Shown here in pieces: positions 925 to 5,133 of a stretch of 5,308 nt of DNA. The notes beneath the pieces were generated by a model. It was not told where the DNA came from, made no database searches, and saw only the letters and a program-made list of their open reading frames with translations. The position numbers and the translations under genes were made by a program. Origin of the DNA: Oscillospiraceae bacterium (GTDB lineage Bacteria > Bacillota_A > Clostridia > Oscillospirales > Oscillospiraceae); NCBI GenBank assembly GCA_017540945.1, contig JAFYAB010000076.1, forward strand, positions 1 to 5,308, given 5' to 3'. Positions within the stretch are counted from its first letter, which is position 1. Each line of letters starts with the position of its first letter.

Positions 925-3039
925 TCAGTTGACCCTGTGCAGATGGAGCTGAACGGCGGGATAGTCCCCCAGCAGCTGGGGCAGGGTGTAGCCGCCGTAC
1001 ATCAGCGCCGCGCCGGAGCGGACGGTGTCGTCCTCCTGCATGGCGTAGACGGCCTCAGGGTCCAGGCCCTTCAGCTTCACATGCAGCAGCGGGCCGTTGG
1101 CGTGGGGCGATTTCACCACCACGTTCAGCAGGGCCCTGGACTTGTCCTGGCTGACGAAGAGCCAGGCCGCAGCGTCCTGGGCCTCGGTAAACTCATCCAG
1201 CCGATAGTAGAGGCCCCGCTGCAGCAGCTCCTCGTCCTCCTGGAAATGGCCGATCTGGTGGCGGATCTCCTCCAGCTCTTCCTCCGAGAGCTTTGCCAGG
1301 TCCAGCTCGTAGCCAAAGGCGCCGGACATGGCCACATAGCCCCGGGTTTGGAGGGGTGTGGTGCGGCCGGTCTGGTGGTTGGGGGCCGCGGAGACGTGGG
1401 CGCCGAGAGTGCTGATGGGGTAGGCAAAGCTGGTGCCCCGCTGGATGGTCAGGCGTTCAATGGGATCGGTGTCGTCGGAGCACCAGATCTGGGGCGTGTA
1501 GTGCAGCATGCCCGCGTCGAAGCGTCCGCCGCCGCCGGAGCAGCCCTCAAAGAGGACCTGGGGGAAGCGGGAGGTCAGGGTCTCCAGCACCCGGTATAGG
1601 CCCAGCATATAGCGGTGGCCCGTCTCCCCCTGCCGCTCGGCGGGCAGGGCGTGGGAGTAGAGGTCGCAGACGGCGCGGTTGAAATCCCACTTGATATAGG
1701 AGATATCATACTCGGTCAGGAGCCTGGAGATGGAGTCGATGATGAAGTCCTGAACCTCCCGGCGGGACAGATCCAGCACCAGCTGGTTCCGGCCCAGGGT
1801 GGGCTTTCTGCCGGGAGCCGCCAGGGCCCAGTCCGGGTGGGTCCGGTAGAGATCCGAGTCCTCGTTCACCATCTCGGGCTCCACCCAGATGCCGAAGAGC
1901 AGGCCCAGCTCCCGGATGCCCTGAATCAGGCTGCCCAGGCCCTCCGGCAGCTTCTCTTTGTTTTCAACCCAGTCTCCCAGGCCGGCGTTGTCGTCCTTGC
2001 GGCCCTGGAACCAGCCGTCGTCCAGAACGAAGAGCTCCACCCCCAGATCCTTGGCCCGGCGGGCCAGATCCAGGATGCGGTCTGCCCGGATGTCGAAGTA
2101 GGTGGCCTCCCAGCTGTTGATCAGCACGGGGCGGTGGGCCAGACGGTACGCGCCGCGGCATACGTTCTCCCGGACGATCCAGTGATACTGCTGGCTCAGG
2201 CGGGTCAGGCCGTCGGCCCAGGACAGCAGGACCTCCGGCGCGGCGAAGCGCTCGCCGGGCGCCAGGCGCCAGCGGAAGCTCTCGTCCCCGGGGCTCATGA
2301 CGGCGCGGACGGAGCCGTACTGCTCCCGCTCCACCTCCGCCCGGAAGCTCCCGGAATACAGATACATCATGCCGTAGCAGTCGCCGTGATCCTCGGTGGC
2401 CCGGTGGTCGCAGAGGATCAGGAAGGGGTTGTGCTCGTGGCTGGACATCCCCCGGCGGGAGCCCACGGTCTGGATCCCGTTCATCACAGGCCGGCGTTCC
2501 GGCTGCCGCTCCAGGCAGTGTCTGCCGTGGAAGTGGAGCAGATCCCAGTTTCCGTAGGGTAGCTCCAGACAGGCGGAGCCCGCCTTTTCCAGGATCATTT
2601 CTCCCTCGCCGCCGTTCTCATAGACAGCGGCCCGGGCAATGATGTTTTTCTCCGCAAAGACGCCGTAGAGCAGGCGGACGGTCAGGCCGTTCACCGGGTC
2701 CCGGAGGGTCAGCTCCAGGGTCTCCGCGCTGCAATCCGCGTCCCAGGCGGCAGGCAGGCCGGGCAGGCTGTACTTGCCGGGCCGGATCTCATGGCTGACG
2801 TAGCGCAGATCCGCGCAGCGGCTGCCGTCCGGGTTCTGCACCCCAAGGCTGGGGATCCGGAAATCGCCCACGCCGCAGGAGCTGAATTCCTGACAGACCG
2901 CGTCCAGGGAATAGCTCCGGTCCGGCTTGGTCAGATAGGGGTTGCCGGAAAAGCTGTGATCATAGTTCCTGTGCAGATAGCTCAGATCCTCATCGCCGAT
3001 GCGCCGGCCGTAGTAGACATGGCGCAGATAACCGTAGGC
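925..3039 (-). CDS. Alpha-galactosidase, glycoside hydrolase family 36, 5'-truncated
   Basis: GH36 alpha-galactosidases release terminal alpha-1,6-galactose from raffinose-type sugars, melibiose and galactomannans; most bacterial members of this tetrameric type are cytoplasmic. About 704 family-like residues remain, from AYGYLRHVYYGRRI to a TGA at 927-925. An N-terminal beta domain with NPF and SRRGMSSHEHNPF-type motifs is followed by the TIM barrel. Barrel motifs are NSWEATYFD, LDDGWF (Asp codons 2017-2022), WVEPEMV, KWDFNR (nucleophile Asp codon 1684-1686), EGCSGGGGRFD and CSDDTD (acid/base Asp codon 1474-1476). A C-terminal beta domain follows. The nucleophile and acid/base are 70 residues apart, the same spacing I recall for Geobacillus AgaA (478/548), and the offset to AgaA is a constant 26 residues. 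About 26 codons and the start are therefore missing. The frame stays open to 3702, but the extra 221 residues are antisense to the neighbouring YczE-like gene and are not galactosidase. The first in-frame Met is far downstream, so the copy as drawn is probably not expressed as active enzyme. It probably heads an operon with the 225-residue protein. Confidence 0.9.
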   Translation of the reverse strand, partial: AYGYLRHVYYGRRIGDEDLSYLHRNYDHSFSGNPYLTKPDRSYSLDAVCQEFSSCGVGDFRIPSLGVQNPDGSRCADLRYVSHEIRPGKYSLPGLPAAWDADCSAETLELTLRDPVNGLTVRLLYGVFAEKNIIARAAVYENGGEGEMILEKAGSACLELPYGNWDLLHFHGRHCLERQPERRPVMNGIQTVGSRRGMSSHEHNPFLILCDHRATEDHGDCYGMMYLYSGSFRAEVEREQYGSVRAVMSPGDESFRWRLAPGERFAAPEVLLSWADGLTRLSQQYHWIVRENVCRGAYRLAHRPVLINSWEATYFDIRADRILDLARRAKDLGVELFVLDDGWFQGRKDDNAGLGDWVENKEKLPEGLGSLIQGIRELGLLFGIWVEPEMVNEDSDLYRTHPDWALAAPGRKPTLGRNQLVLDLSRREVQDFIIDSISRLLTEYDISYIKWDFNRAVCDLYSHALPAERQGETGHRYMLGLYRVLETLTSRFPQVLFEGCSGGGGRFDAGMLHYTPQIWCSDDTDPIERLTIQRGTSFAYPISTLGAHVSAAPNHQTGRTTPLQTRGYVAMSGAFGYELDLAKLSEEELEEIRHQIGHFQEDEELLQRGLYYRLDEFTEAQDAAAWLFVSQDKSRALLNVVVKSPHANGPLLHVKLKGLDPEAVYAMQEDDTVRSGAALMYGGYTLPQLLGDYPAVQLHLHRVN

Positions 3040-3040
3040 A
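3031..3040. other. Junction of two 5'-truncated, divergently oriented genes
   Basis: To the left, minus-strand galactosidase homology runs up to the codons for AYGYL (3039 downward). To the right, plus-strand YczE-like homology starts at about VGIFRTAELGVDPF (3034 onward). The six bases GTAGGC at 3034-3039 can belong to either gene, giving the Tyr/Ala codons of one and the Val-Gly codons of the other. No intergenic region, promoter, ribosome binding site or start codon remains for either gene. A deletion across a shared divergent promoter region, an inversion breakpoint, or a chimeric join in assembly would each produce this. Confidence 0.75.
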
Positions 3041-3606
3041 TCTTCCGAACCGCCGAGCTGGGCGTGGATCCCTTTCAGTCCTTTATGAGCGGCATGGAGG
3101 CGGTGATCCCCATCTCCTTCGGGACCTTGTATGTGATCGTCAACGCTGTCCTGCTGATCTTTTCCCTGATCTTTGACCGGCGGCAGATCGGCCTGGCCAC
3201 CATCATCAACCTGACCCTGCTGGGCTATGTGGCGGAGTTCTCCGAAAAGCTGCTCCGCTCCCTCTTTCCTGGGCCGAGCCTGGCGGGGCGCGTGCTCCTC
3301 CTGGCGGTCGCCCTGGTCCTGCTCTGCTTCAGCTCCGCTCTGTACTTCAACGCGGATCTGGGCGTCTCCACCTACGACGCGGTCTCCCGTGTGGCGGCGA
3401 AGCGTCAGAACCGGATTCCCTTCCGCTGGTGCCGGATCATCAGCGACGTGATCTGCGTCTGTGTCGCGGCCCTGCTGCTGCGGCTCGGAGGCAAAACCTG
3501 GAGCGGTGTGACCGCCTTCATCGGCCCTGCCACCATCATCACCGCCTTCTTCATGGGGCCTCTGATCAGCTTCTTCTCCAATAAGCTGCCCAGCTTTCAA
3601 AAATAA
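3034..3606 (+). CDS. YczE-like (YitT/YczE superfamily) integral membrane protein, 5'-truncated
   Basis: About 190 residues of a multi-pass membrane protein remain. It shows the internal duplication typical of YczE/YitT-type proteins: AELGVDPFQSF near the start and ADLGVSTYDAV about 100 residues later, each following a hydrophobic helix. In between are SFGTLYVIVN and a DRRQIGLATIIN turn, with GPATIITAFFMGPLI near the end; the TAA is at 3604-3606. About five hydrophobic helices can be seen. The function of the family is poorly defined (YczE was linked to lipopeptide production in Bacillus), so no substrate is assigned. The N-terminal helix that should precede VGIFRTAELG, some 20-25 residues, is missing. 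The open frame extends back to an ATG at 2791, but those 81 codons are antisense to the galactosidase and are an artefact of the junction. No genuine start or ribosome binding site is visible. A strong terminator follows 14 bases after the stop. Confidence 0.8.
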   Translation, partial: VGIFRTAELGVDPFQSFMSGMEAVIPISFGTLYVIVNAVLLIFSLIFDRRQIGLATIINLTLLGYVAEFSEKLLRSLFPGPSLAGRVLLLAVALVLLCFSSALYFNADLGVSTYDAVSRVAAKRQNRIPFRWCRIISDVICVCVAALLLRLGGKTWSGVTAFIGPATIITAFFMGPLISFFSNKLPSFQK

Positions 3607-3620
3607 ATTCCGGCAGGCTC

Positions 3621-3661
3621 CGCGGGGAGGTCCTTCGACGAAGGATCTCCCCGCGTTTTTT
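3621..3661 (+). terminator. Rho-independent terminator of the YczE-like gene
   Basis: CGCGGGGAGGTCCTTCG (3621-3637) pairs with CGAAGGATCTCCCCGCG (3639-3655) through one G-T wobble. With the central bases left as a loop, this is a stem of about 15 bp. Six T residues follow directly (3656-3661). It lies 14 bases after the TAA and insulates the following promoter from read-through. Confidence 0.93.
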
Positions 3662-3662
3662 A

Positions 3663-3691
3663 TTGACATTCCGGCCGACGCCGGGTATAAT
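3663..3691 (+). promoter_or_regulatory. SigA-type promoter of the cobalamin-riboswitch unit
   Basis: TTGACA (3663-3668) and TATAAT (3686-3691) both match the consensus exactly and are separated by the optimal 17 bp. Transcription should start near 3698-3700, just before the riboswitch aptamer. The -35 box begins two bases after the T-run of the preceding terminator, so nothing else fits in between. Such a strong promoter suggests that control is exerted after initiation, by the riboswitch. Confidence 0.9.
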
Positions 3692-3699
3692 GTCTGCTG

Positions 3700-3890
3700 C
3701 AAAGACGGGCGTGCACAGCACTTAATCAGGAAGCGGGTCCAAGCCCCGCGCCAGACCGTGGCCGTAGATGGCAGAACAGACCCGGCTCACCGCTTGCCGC
3801 AAAGCGGGAACAGACCATTGAGGCGTCAGCCTTGAGAAGGTCCGCCGGGCTCGCCATGAGCCGGAAGACTGACCCGCGCAATGCCGCCGC
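3700..3890 (+). ncRNA. Cobalamin (B12) riboswitch
   Basis: The leader RNA carries the conserved cobalamin aptamer parts in order. TTAATCAGGAAGC (3722-3734) matches the conserved TTAATaGGGAA core of the class. A short stem follows, GCGGG (3733-3737) with CCCGC (3745-3749), with a CCAAG-type loop. Then comes GACCATTG...GAGAAGGTC (GACC 3813-3816 with GGTC 3839-3842, capped by AGGC/GCCT), equivalent to the CCACTG...GGGAAGG element. GGCTC/GAGCC (3848-3852/3858-3862) leads into GAGCCGGAAGACTGACCC (3858-3875), the B12-box counterpart of AGCCCGAAGACCTGCC in the E. coli btuB leader. CGGG (3706-3709) and CCCG (3873-3876) can close the outer stem. In this class, adenosyl- or methylcobalamin binding lowers expression downstream. 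Outer limits are approximate. Confidence 0.88.
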
Positions 3891-3903
3891 CGCGAGCTCC
3901 GGG

Positions 3904-3951
3904 GCGGTCCGTCAGACCGCAGGGAGGGGACCTCCGCCTCCCCCAGGACGG
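3904..3951 (+). promoter_or_regulatory. Candidate expression platform hairpins of the riboswitch
   Basis: Between aptamer and start codon lie GCGGTC/GACCGC (3904-3909/3915-3920, 5-base loop) and GGGAGG/CCTCCC (3922-3927/3937-3942). CCGTC (3909-3913) can instead pair with GACGG (3947-3951), which excludes the first hairpin, so two mutually exclusive folds are possible. No T-run follows either, so I do not see a classical intrinsic terminator. The switch mechanism is undetermined; translation or Rho-dependent control are options. Read by eye, not folded by computer. Confidence 0.4.
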
Positions 3952-3982
3952 CAGAGCCTTTGCGGACAAACAAATAAATACA

Positions 3983-3988
3983 AAGGAG
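3983..3988 (+). promoter_or_regulatory. Ribosome binding site of the DUF4430 lipoprotein
   Basis: AAGGAG lies 8 bases before the ATG at 3997-3999, in an A-rich unstructured stretch (about 3966-3996). It decides the start. An upstream in-frame ATG at 3832 lies inside the riboswitch and has no such site. Confidence 0.8.
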
Positions 3989-3996
3989 AACACGAT

Positions 3997-4491
3997 ATGA
4001 AGCATTCCCGCAAAACACTCGTGTGCCTGCTCCTGGTCCTGCTGCTTGCGGCGGCGGCGCTGACCGGATGCACGCAAAACAAGCCCGCCTCCACCGAGGC
4101 TCCCAAGACCGAGGCCCAGACCCAGGCCGCCCCCAACACCACCGCGGCGGCTCCCGCTGACACCGAAGCGGTCCCCGCCGACACCGGCAAGCCGGAAGAG
4201 CTGGGCGAAGGCGTCACCGTCTTCTACCTGGACGTGACCGACAAGGACAACGTCACCTCCTCCTACGCCATTCACACCGACGCCGACACGGTGGGCGCGG
4301 CCCTGGCCAACCTGGATCTGATCCACGGCGACAACGGCCTGTACGACACCGTCTTCGGCAAGACTCTGGATTGGAACGCCGATCACATGTACTGGGCCTT
4401 CTACATCGACGGAGAATACGCCATGACCGGTTTGGACGAAACCCCCATCGCTCCGGAGGGGCACTACGCTCTGACCGCCACCGCGGGCTGA
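3997..4491 (+). CDS. DUF4430 (transcobalamin-like C-terminal domain) lipoprotein, likely surface corrinoid-binding protein
   Basis: This 164-residue protein has a lipoprotein signal peptide: basic MKHSRK, a Leu/Ala-rich core and lipobox LTGC with the lipidated Cys at residue 25. A linker rich in Ala, Thr, Pro and Glu (about 26-70) could span the cell wall. The C-terminal domain (about 73-163) begins VTVFYLDV and contains YAIHTDADTVGAAL, GLYDTVFGKTLDW, YWAFYIDGEYA and PIAPEGHYALT. This is the layout of DUF4430, the bacterial counterpart of the C-terminal domain of transcobalamin and intrinsic factor. Some bacterial relatives carry other domains; here the domain stands alone. A cobalamin riboswitch lies upstream and an ECF S component starts one base after the stop. 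The likely role is to capture cobalamin or a related corrinoid outside the membrane and deliver it to that transporter. Ligand and hand-over are inferred. Confidence 0.88.
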   Translation: MKHSRKTLVCLLLVLLLAAAALTGCTQNKPASTEAPKTEAQTQAAPNTTAAAPADTEAVPADTGKPEELGEGVTVFYLDVTDKDNVTSSYAIHTDADTVGAALANLDLIHGDNGLYDTVFGKTLDWNADHMYWAFYIDGEYAMTGLDETPIAPEGHYALTATAG

Positions 4492-4492
4492 C

Positions 4493-5026
4493 ATGGAGCC
4501 CAAGGCCCGGCTGGATCTGCGGCATCTGGCGATCTTCGCCATGCTGGGGTCCATTCAGTTTGCCGCCAAGCAGTTCCTGGAGCTCCTGCCCAACGTGGAG
4601 CTGGTCAGCACCCTCACCATGGTCTACACCCTGGTCTACCGGCGCAAGGCCCTGATCCCCATCTTTCTGTTTATTCTGATGGAGGGGGTACTTTGGGGGT
4701 TTGCGGTCTGGTGGGTCCCCTATCTCTATCTCTGGCCGCTGCTCTGGGCCGTGACTATGGCCCTGCCCAAAAACATCCCGGGCTGGCTGCAAATCCCGGT
4801 CTACGCGGGAATCTGCGCGCTCTTCGGCCTCTACTACGGGACCCTCTACGCTCCCTGGCAGGCAGCGGCCTTTCTGGGTTGGGATATGAACAAGCTGTTG
4901 GCCTGGATTGCCGCGGGTCTGCCCTGGGACGTGGTCCACGCCGTCGGCAATCTGGCTCTGGGGACTCTGATCGTTCCCCTGACGGAGCTGCTGCAGGATT
5001 TGGAGCGGCGGATCATACGCGCATAA
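4493..5026 (+). CDS. ECF transporter S component, probable cobalamin/corrinoid specificity subunit
   Basis: This 177-residue, very hydrophobic protein has about six membrane helices (roughly 12-32, 35-50, 53-70, 72-91, 98-126 with a break, and 134-166), the usual size and shape of an ECF substrate-binding S component. Helix 1 (LAIFAMLGSIQFAA) has the small-residue face through which S components dock on EcfT. Other marks are YRRKALIPIF, WWVPYLYLWP, YYGTLYAPWQA and GLPWDVVHAVGN. I recognise the last two as typical of a Clostridia S-component group but not of a biochemically named one. It starts one base after the lipoprotein stop with no good ribosome binding site, so translational coupling is likely. 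No EcfA ATPase or EcfT gene is in the window; it probably shares the cell's common module. The cobalamin assignment comes from the riboswitch and the DUF4430 partner, not from the protein itself. It could instead carry a B12 precursor. Confidence 0.82.
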   Translation: MEPKARLDLRHLAIFAMLGSIQFAAKQFLELLPNVELVSTLTMVYTLVYRRKALIPIFLFILMEGVLWGFAVWWVPYLYLWPLLWAVTMALPKNIPGWLQIPVYAGICALFGLYYGTLYAPWQAAAFLGWDMNKLLAWIAAGLPWDVVHAVGNLALGTLIVPLTELLQDLERRIIRA

Positions 5027-5029
5027 ACA

Positions 5030-5054
5030 ACAGGAAGCTCAAAAAGCTTCCTGT
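5030..5054 (+). terminator. Hairpin directly after the S-component stop codon
   Basis: ACAGGAAGCT (5030-5039) and AGCTTCCTGT (5045-5054) form a perfect 10-bp stem with a CAAAA loop, starting three bases after the TAA. No T-run follows on the plus strand, so it may be a 3' stabilising hairpin or half of a tandem terminator. CCTGTCA occurs twice, at 5050-5056 and 5058-5064. Confidence 0.55.
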
Positions 5055-5064
5055 CAGCCTGTCA

Positions 5065-5100
5065 AAGCCCCGCGGAGCCGAAGCTCCGCGGGGCTTGTTT
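5065..5100. terminator. Strong, probably bidirectional terminator between convergent genes
   Basis: AAGCCCCGCGGAGC (5065-5078) pairs perfectly with GCTCCGCGGGGCTT (5083-5096), 14 bp, with a CGAA loop (TTCG read on the minus strand). It is followed by TTGTTT on the plus strand and by TTTGAC on the minus strand. It lies between the plus-strand S component and the minus-strand gene at the right edge, so it can serve both. It shares the 11-mer GCTCCGCGGGG with the start of the terminator region near 3617-3627. Confidence 0.82.
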
Positions 5101-5133
5101 GTCAGTGAACAATTTTTTCAGCTTGCGCGGGTT

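Follow-up and report, generated by a model that had tools for sequence, protein, structure and literature searches.

A cobalamin riboswitch-controlled gene pair of a DUF4430 lipoprotein and a CbrT-like S component, a likely corrinoid-scavenging cassette of Clostridia

The cobalamin carrier CbrT was reportedly introduced by a comparative-genomics paper in 2009. Energy-coupling factor (ECF) importers are described as binding their substrate through the S component, and purified ECF-CbrT imports cobalamin in liposomes, so that a further partner is dispensable for transport by the characterised CbrT, which also takes cobinamide (passages of PMC5997447). The corresponding cluster of Lactobacillus delbrueckii has the order nrdJ-cbrS-cbrT-pduO (same passages), and CbrT orthologues have already been listed in gut genomes by a gut-microbiome reconstruction (passages of PMC6593275). 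For the transcobalamin-like SLBB clade of beta-grasp domains, a role in scavenging B12 was predicted by Burroughs et al. 2007 in operons that also encode CbiO and CbiQ (parts of PMC1796856). The subject here is a 5,308-nucleotide stretch of an Oscillospiraceae bacterium (contig JAFYAB010000076.1; hereafter the window), in which a promoter, a cobalamin riboswitch, a DUF4430 lipoprotein gene and the gene of a CbrT-like S component follow each other on the forward strand (Table 1). From its context, it is close to certain that this module serves corrinoid uptake. It is considered likely to be a two-gene scavenging cassette: a riboswitch-controlled lipoprotein would capture corrinoid and hand it over to, or cap it on, the S component, with delivery or capping being the least supported part.

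The S-component open reading frame (ORF) starts one base after the stop codon of the lipoprotein gene, as an earlier note made from the sequence of the window had read it. The profile of its family (2,423 relatives at E<=0.001) matches ECF-CbrT (6fnp) over the full length, profile positions 1-172 aligning to chain positions 1-174 at E 1.6e-11; 6fnp is the only solved chain below E 0.001, and the predicted fold is that of a six-helix S component. An S component for another vitamin was considered and dropped: at E<=10, the only solved chains matched by the profile were 6fnp and, at 7.6, a non-transporter. Helix 1 of ECF S components carries an AxxxA motif of small residues; a consensus built from 31 sequences has A16-x3-A20 and the window protein A16-x3-S20, and no residue is in the majority at position 20 of a 95-sequence alignment. 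Nine positions are common to nine aligned S components (N34, G69, W73, G112, G116, G142, D146, H149 and N153). Identity to four Lactobacillales relatives is 21-26%, and no Pfam or NCBIfam model, ECF S-component models included, matches the window protein at E<=1, whereas the S component of L. intestinalis matches PF12822. With Foldseek, the best S-component match was 4huq at E 0.18 and none fell below 0.001, but a second-look aligner did match. By homology, the protein presumably binds and transports cobalamin.

The lipoprotein consists solely of signal, linker and beta domain. As a single sequence, it scores 12.9 bits against PF14478, under the gathering score of 23.8, and does not belong to the 19 of 26 alignment members that match this model at E<=0.01. 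The suspicion that DUF4430 was a misreading is overruled by family profile and fold: 3u7z is matched by the window sequence alone (E 1.2e-4) and by the family profile (E 5e-16), and the predicted fold is transcobalamin-beta-like, its likeness to transcobalamin and intrinsic factor lying well above that to other beta-grasp folds. Compared with transcobalamin, intrinsic factor and haptocorrin (human beta domain, 5no0/5np4), whose fold its predicted one resembles, the protein lacks the alpha/alpha toroid and is a membrane-anchored lipoprotein; its hairpin region falls four residues short of that in most members of its own family. No substrate-binding-protein family of Pfam or NCBIfam is matched, and no test of this lipoprotein was found in the open papers searched. 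It is a likely corrinoid capture protein.

The survey of adjacency supports a pairing conserved far beyond the window. A genome scan for the S component yielded 557 confirmed loci, the best 80 of which were analysed; judging by their titles, the genomes concerned are Clostridia-type, and many were sampled from rumen or gut. A DUF4430 domain is encoded directly upstream, on the same strand and at most 112 bases away, in 72 of these 80 best loci, and natural fusions of the two genes occur in none of them. For a less biased sample, 197 genomes were drawn evenly from the order of genome G001 and searched with both alignments; 70 of 87 S-component rows were kept (E<=2e-21; 17 weaker ones dropped), together with 87 listed DUF4430 rows with E<=1.5e-10. 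In this order sample, 68 of the 70 strong S-component matches, distributed over 68 genomes, have a same-strand DUF4430 match within 900 bases upstream (median 14, largest 468), and all 68 genomes with a strong match contain DUF4430. Of the two matches without such a partner, one is a second S copy in G199 and the other, a copy in G051, contains two in-frame stops.

Eight of the 80 best loci have no DUF4430 directly upstream: L024, with only 31 bases upstream, and L033, L039, L041, L043, L064, L068 and L076. Common neighbouring genes suggest that all of these apart from L024 and the separate L076 form one clade. A search of the genomes of the seven unpaired loci other than L024 with the lipoprotein alignment gave a strong match in one of seven, that of L076, on another contig; this search misses divergent DUF4430 proteins such as those at L039, L041 and L043. 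These three loci carry a convergent RF00174 operon on the reverse strand (L039:4849-6945, L041:4250-6385, L043:4549-6679) that encodes a DUF4430 protein (61.7-69.2 bits) followed by a surface protein of 367-394 residues, which has no Pfam match and by eye resembles an alpha/alpha toroid; possibly, these operons are a two-gene split transcobalamin.

The B12-type control proposed in the earlier note is supported in the window and in most of the relatives examined. The window aptamer matches RF00174 over the whole model (positions 1-189 of 189), above the gathering score of 31.5 bits. When 77 of the 80 best loci were scanned with all of Rfam (L058-L060 left out), a cobalamin-class riboswitch above threshold was found on the coding strand upstream of the pair in 39, of which 38 were RF00174 and one AdoCbl-II. 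Scanning the order sample for RF00174 alone with stricter filters placed this riboswitch upstream of 30 of 68 pairs; of the other 38 leaders, 36 were scanned permissively with all of Rfam, two ended by contig edges being left out. These 36 leaders gave five matches above threshold (four RF00174, one AdoCbl-II), 13 below threshold at E<=0.1 and two at E 0.21-0.35, all 20 being of cobalamin class and on the coding strand. The order sample totals 35 of 66 pairs above threshold and 48 of 66 including weak matches. Across the 77 loci and the 36 leaders, all compared with the whole of Rfam, no riboswitch of another vitamin was found upstream on the coding strand; a flavin mononucleotide (FMN) riboswitch match in L066 lies on the opposite strand. 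Neither this survey nor the RF00174 match of the window thus refutes the reading of the earlier note, which had named both as checks. The riboswitch of L001 is the only RF00174 match in its genome, G001, under the stricter filters.

Three side observations concern riboswitches near these genes. AdoCbl-II riboswitches stand over the same gene pair at L055:3218-3294 and L115:845-928, and below threshold at L105-L107, L110-L112, L114, L121 and L127; within this one type of operon, the riboswitch class therefore appears to have been swapped or to have drifted apart, AdoCbl-II standing in the place of RF00174. ZMP/ZTP riboswitches lie directly 3' of the S-component gene at L032:4601-4684, L044:4635-4716 and L067:4639-4722. 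At L091:434-1204 and L092:474-1229, in genomes without a strong S-component match, DUF4430 follows RF00174, and the downstream ORF is a FeoB-like GTPase by eye.

In Lactobacillales, the same two families meet at the cbrT locus. A tblastn search with CbrT against 72,556 plasmid records returned 39 records; ten were examined, and in eight of these a DUF4430 gene is annotated within 4 kb. The DUF4430 lipoprotein gene lies directly upstream of cbrT on plasmids of L. intestinalis, L. plantarum and E. raffinosus. Because the order in L. intestinalis (nrdJ, DUF4430, S component, cobalamin adenosyltransferase) equals nrdJ-cbrS-cbrT-pduO, the CbrS of L. delbrueckii is most likely a DUF4430 lipoprotein; in the open literature searched, cbrS was found together with cobalamin in a single mention, in the passages of PMC5997447. 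The notion that a partner protein is new for the CbrT system was therefore overstated, given the lipoprotein at the cbrS position of Lactobacillales loci and the scavenging predicted in the accessible parts of Burroughs et al. 2007: the CbrS-CbrT layout is already known from other bacteria. In the open literature searched, mostly without subscription papers, nothing was found that describes how widespread the pairing is, that a riboswitch controls it, that the partner has a transcobalamin-like fold or that the S component forms a separate subfamily.

With the ECF-CbrT system, the window pair shares the S-component fold, the full-length profile match, the nine common positions and, in related clusters, a DUF4430 gene adjoining cbrT; it differs in standing under a cobalamin riboswitch, in the absence of nrdJ and pduO from the window and in its S-component sequence. 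Like the secreted or surface SLBB proteins encoded near ECF-type A and T genes (parts of PMC1796856), the lipoprotein belongs to a predicted B12-scavenging type; in contrast to them, it is a lone-domain lipoprotein accompanied by an S component only, with neither A nor T gene in the window, and those parts of Burroughs et al. 2007 name no S component. BtuF of BtuFCD is likewise an extracytoplasmic protein with a proposed role in supplying a B12 importer, but of another transporter class, and its substrate-binding-protein type is not matched by the window lipoprotein.

The DUF4430 domain accompanies S components in several arrangements of genes. Latilactobacillus curvatus has DUF4430, EcfT, an ATP-binding cassette (ABC) ATPase and the S component annotated consecutively. 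Four further loci, L094-L097, were chosen for a weak S-component match on the same contig as RF00174. The S-component gene is separate in L094; in L095, L096 and L097, on stretches with a cobalamin riboswitch, the S region ends an ORF of 832-856 residues, which in L096 is an ABC-ABC-S fusion. DUF4430 proteins precede the S-component gene in L094, L096 and L097, and one L096 protein joins a prenyltransferase-like alpha/alpha toroid with DUF4430, which is the full transcobalamin layout. The L096 protein labelled EcfT owes this label to position and size only and matches no Pfam family.

Of the leader, the block GCCTTTGC is kept together with AAAGGAG in ten of 17 relatives (L001, L002, L003, L005, L007-L011, L013), which suggests that the riboswitch acts via control of translation. 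This mode is also preferred because the stretch from aptamer to start codon contains no T-run, for which reason an expression platform with an intrinsic terminator was dropped. The translational platform falls short of being demonstrated: the leaders are not clearly more stable than shuffles (z -0.8 in the window, -0.7 to -1.9 in four relatives), and covariation at GCCTTTGC was not obtainable from the nearly invariant block. Of the 17 relatives, ten have a 12/12 promoter and two an 11/12 site, beginning 22-29 bases ahead of the riboswitch match; the remaining five reach 6 to 9 of 12 matches. The perfect SigA promoter that had been read in the window stands.

The genome setting was assessed in 24 genomes chosen among those with the pair; their completeness is not stated, so that absences are weak. 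EcfT (PF02361) is present in 23 of the 24, B12-binding_2 in 21, the B12-binding domain above cut-off in 21 and a BtuC-type permease above cut-off in eight. The corrin-ring enzyme CbiC was found in a single genome, G008 of Roseburia inulinivorans, which fits the crediting of Roseburia with cobalamin synthesis in the passages of PMC7478625. These passages name BtuCDF, set apart from CbrT, as the B12 transporter, although L077, which lies in G008 of R. inulinivorans, holds the gene pair. The class II ribonucleotide reductase NrdJ, a neighbour in Lactobacillus, is excluded as the cause of the B12 need in these genomes, because its model TIGR02504 matches in none of the 24.

The module probably serves corrinoid scavenging in the following manner. 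At low cell corrinoid, the riboswitch would permit expression of the operon, probably by freeing the ribosome-binding site. The lipoprotein, lipid-anchored outside the membrane on a flexible linker and presumably the counterpart of Lactobacillus CbrS by gene order, would bind corrinoid from the medium with its transcobalamin-beta-type domain and may then pass it to the S component or cap it there. The S component would carry it across the membrane with a shared EcfA/EcfA'/EcfT module encoded elsewhere.

Several observations must be set beside this reading. Judged by fold without sequence, S components for folate and riboflavin come out slightly ahead of 6fnp. Plasmid H24 lacks DUF4430, though ribonucleotide reductase and adenosyltransferase are present, and the unannotated plasmid record H10 shows no DUF4430 by the profile built here. 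On a Subdoligranulum plasmid (L084:128-4441), the gene of a CbrT-like S component is preceded by URO-D, DUF2284 and RACo-type genes, by reading a corrinoid methyltransferase context, and no DUF4430 was found there. No explaining riboswitch precedes 18 of the 66 order-sample pairs. In the reverse direction, 19 of 87 DUF4430 rows are unpaired among the matches listed; the alignment was built mostly from paired lipoproteins, so that unpaired kinds may be under-counted. Against the cassette, G001, G002 and G005 have neither B12-binding_2 nor the B12-binding domain above cut-off.

A tentative and rather doubtful extension of the scavenging reading is that lipoprotein and S component together form a split, membrane-embedded transcobalamin, in which the beta domain would grip one corrinoid face and the S component would replace the alpha/alpha toroid. 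It is equally doubtful that ligand binding assembles the pair, by analogy to the separately expressed human alpha and beta domains. Were the split arrangement true, DUF4430 lipoproteins (CbrS) would represent a new type of ECF transporter subunit, dedicated to capture and capping.

Unlikely, too, is a lipoprotein that binds no corrinoid, having another ligand such as a metal or glycan or being a structural surface protein merely co-regulated. The nearest solved relative, 3u7z, bears the title of a putative metal-binding protein, DUF4430 lipoproteins are also encoded singly next to unrelated genes, and beta-grasp folds have many roles (parts of PMC1796856); these points are opposed by the almost invariable position of the gene immediately ahead of that for a cobalamin-type S component, in Clostridia as well as several Lactobacillales clusters, by the cobalamin-type riboswitches over the pair and by the likeness to the animal carriers. 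There is little chance that the cargo, instead of complete cobamides, is a precursor of corrinoids or a substrate for their remodelling (cobinamide, alpha-ribazole or a lower-ligand base): riboswitch control would suit any of these, and CbrT itself accepts cobinamide (passages of PMC5997447), but the S component is homologous to CbrT, which transports whole cobalamin, and the animal carriers likewise hold the entire molecule with their beta domains. A pairing kept only by descent, with a neutral neighbour that does not cooperate, is highly improbable. The 80 best loci are Clostridia-type by their titles and hence not independent events, but Lactobacillales also have the two families side by side, arranged in different gene orders; in Latilactobacillus they are joined by EcfT and an ABC ATPase, elsewhere they lie close to an ABC-ABC-S fusion, and DUF4430 is matched in every order-sample genome with a strong S component.

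If the scavenging cassette holds, a dedicated extracellular partner would change the picture of the S component as the binding protein of ECF importers for vitamin B12, and this partner has the fold of a domain with which animals carry B12. It would provide a concrete path for B12 uptake in genomes whose annotation may lack one, the S component of the window matching no Pfam or NCBIfam model. The size of the S-component family and the lack of the corrin-ring marker CbiC in 23 of the 24 chosen genomes speak for its relevance.

Table 1. Elements of the module and its borders in the window
Feature	Position	Strand	Basis
Intrinsic terminator of upstream gene	3621..3655	+	terminator scan: 16 pairs then TTTTTT
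Sigma-A type promoter TTGACA-17-TATAAT	3663..3691	+	12/12 matches
Cobalamin riboswitch aptamer RF00174	3691..3891	+	cmscan 48.8 bits, E 3.2e-10
GCCTTTGC, conserved, complementary to ribosome-binding site; candidate anti-Shine-Dalgarno of putative translational platform	3956..3963	+	sequence
Ribosome-binding site AAAGGAG	3982..3988	+	sequence
DUF4430 lipoprotein, 164 residues	3997..4491	+	ORF, lipobox, family profile, predicted fold
Lipobox LTGC, after signal peptide	4060-4071	+	sequence
Beta-grasp domain, preceded by Thr/Pro/Ala-rich linker	about 4195-4488	+	family profile, predicted fold
CbrT-like ECF S component, 177 residues, six helices	4493..5026	+	family profile, predicted fold
Two stable hairpins (5030-5054, 5066-5095)	5030..5095	+	second one precedes TTGTTTGT

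The module spans 3663 to ~5095. Its description as closed by terminators holds only loosely: the strong terminator before the promoter belongs to the preceding gene and insulates the module (fold of 3600-3662, -32.7 kcal/mol, z -4.8), and downstream there are two very stable hairpins absent from the list of the consensus terminator scan. The fold of 5024-5108 reaches -50.1 kcal/mol (z -8.5; 0/200 shuffles equally stable), and the transcript likely ends at these hairpins. Among the 80 best loci, those aligning to the window DNA near the module do so only from ~3657; L001 and L002 are nearest at the DNA level (~80% identity over the module).

On the reverse strand, positions 179-856 encode a 225-residue protein with one likely membrane helix and no Pfam or NCBIfam family above cut-off. 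It is followed by a GH36 alpha-galactosidase (925-3084, reverse strand; PF02065, 502.7 bits) and by the C-terminal part of a YczE-like membrane protein (3082-3606, forward strand; NF052291 profile positions 35-182, 55.3 bits). The latter two genes abut head to head with no evident start codon in either, a possible sign of an inversion or a chimeric contig join.
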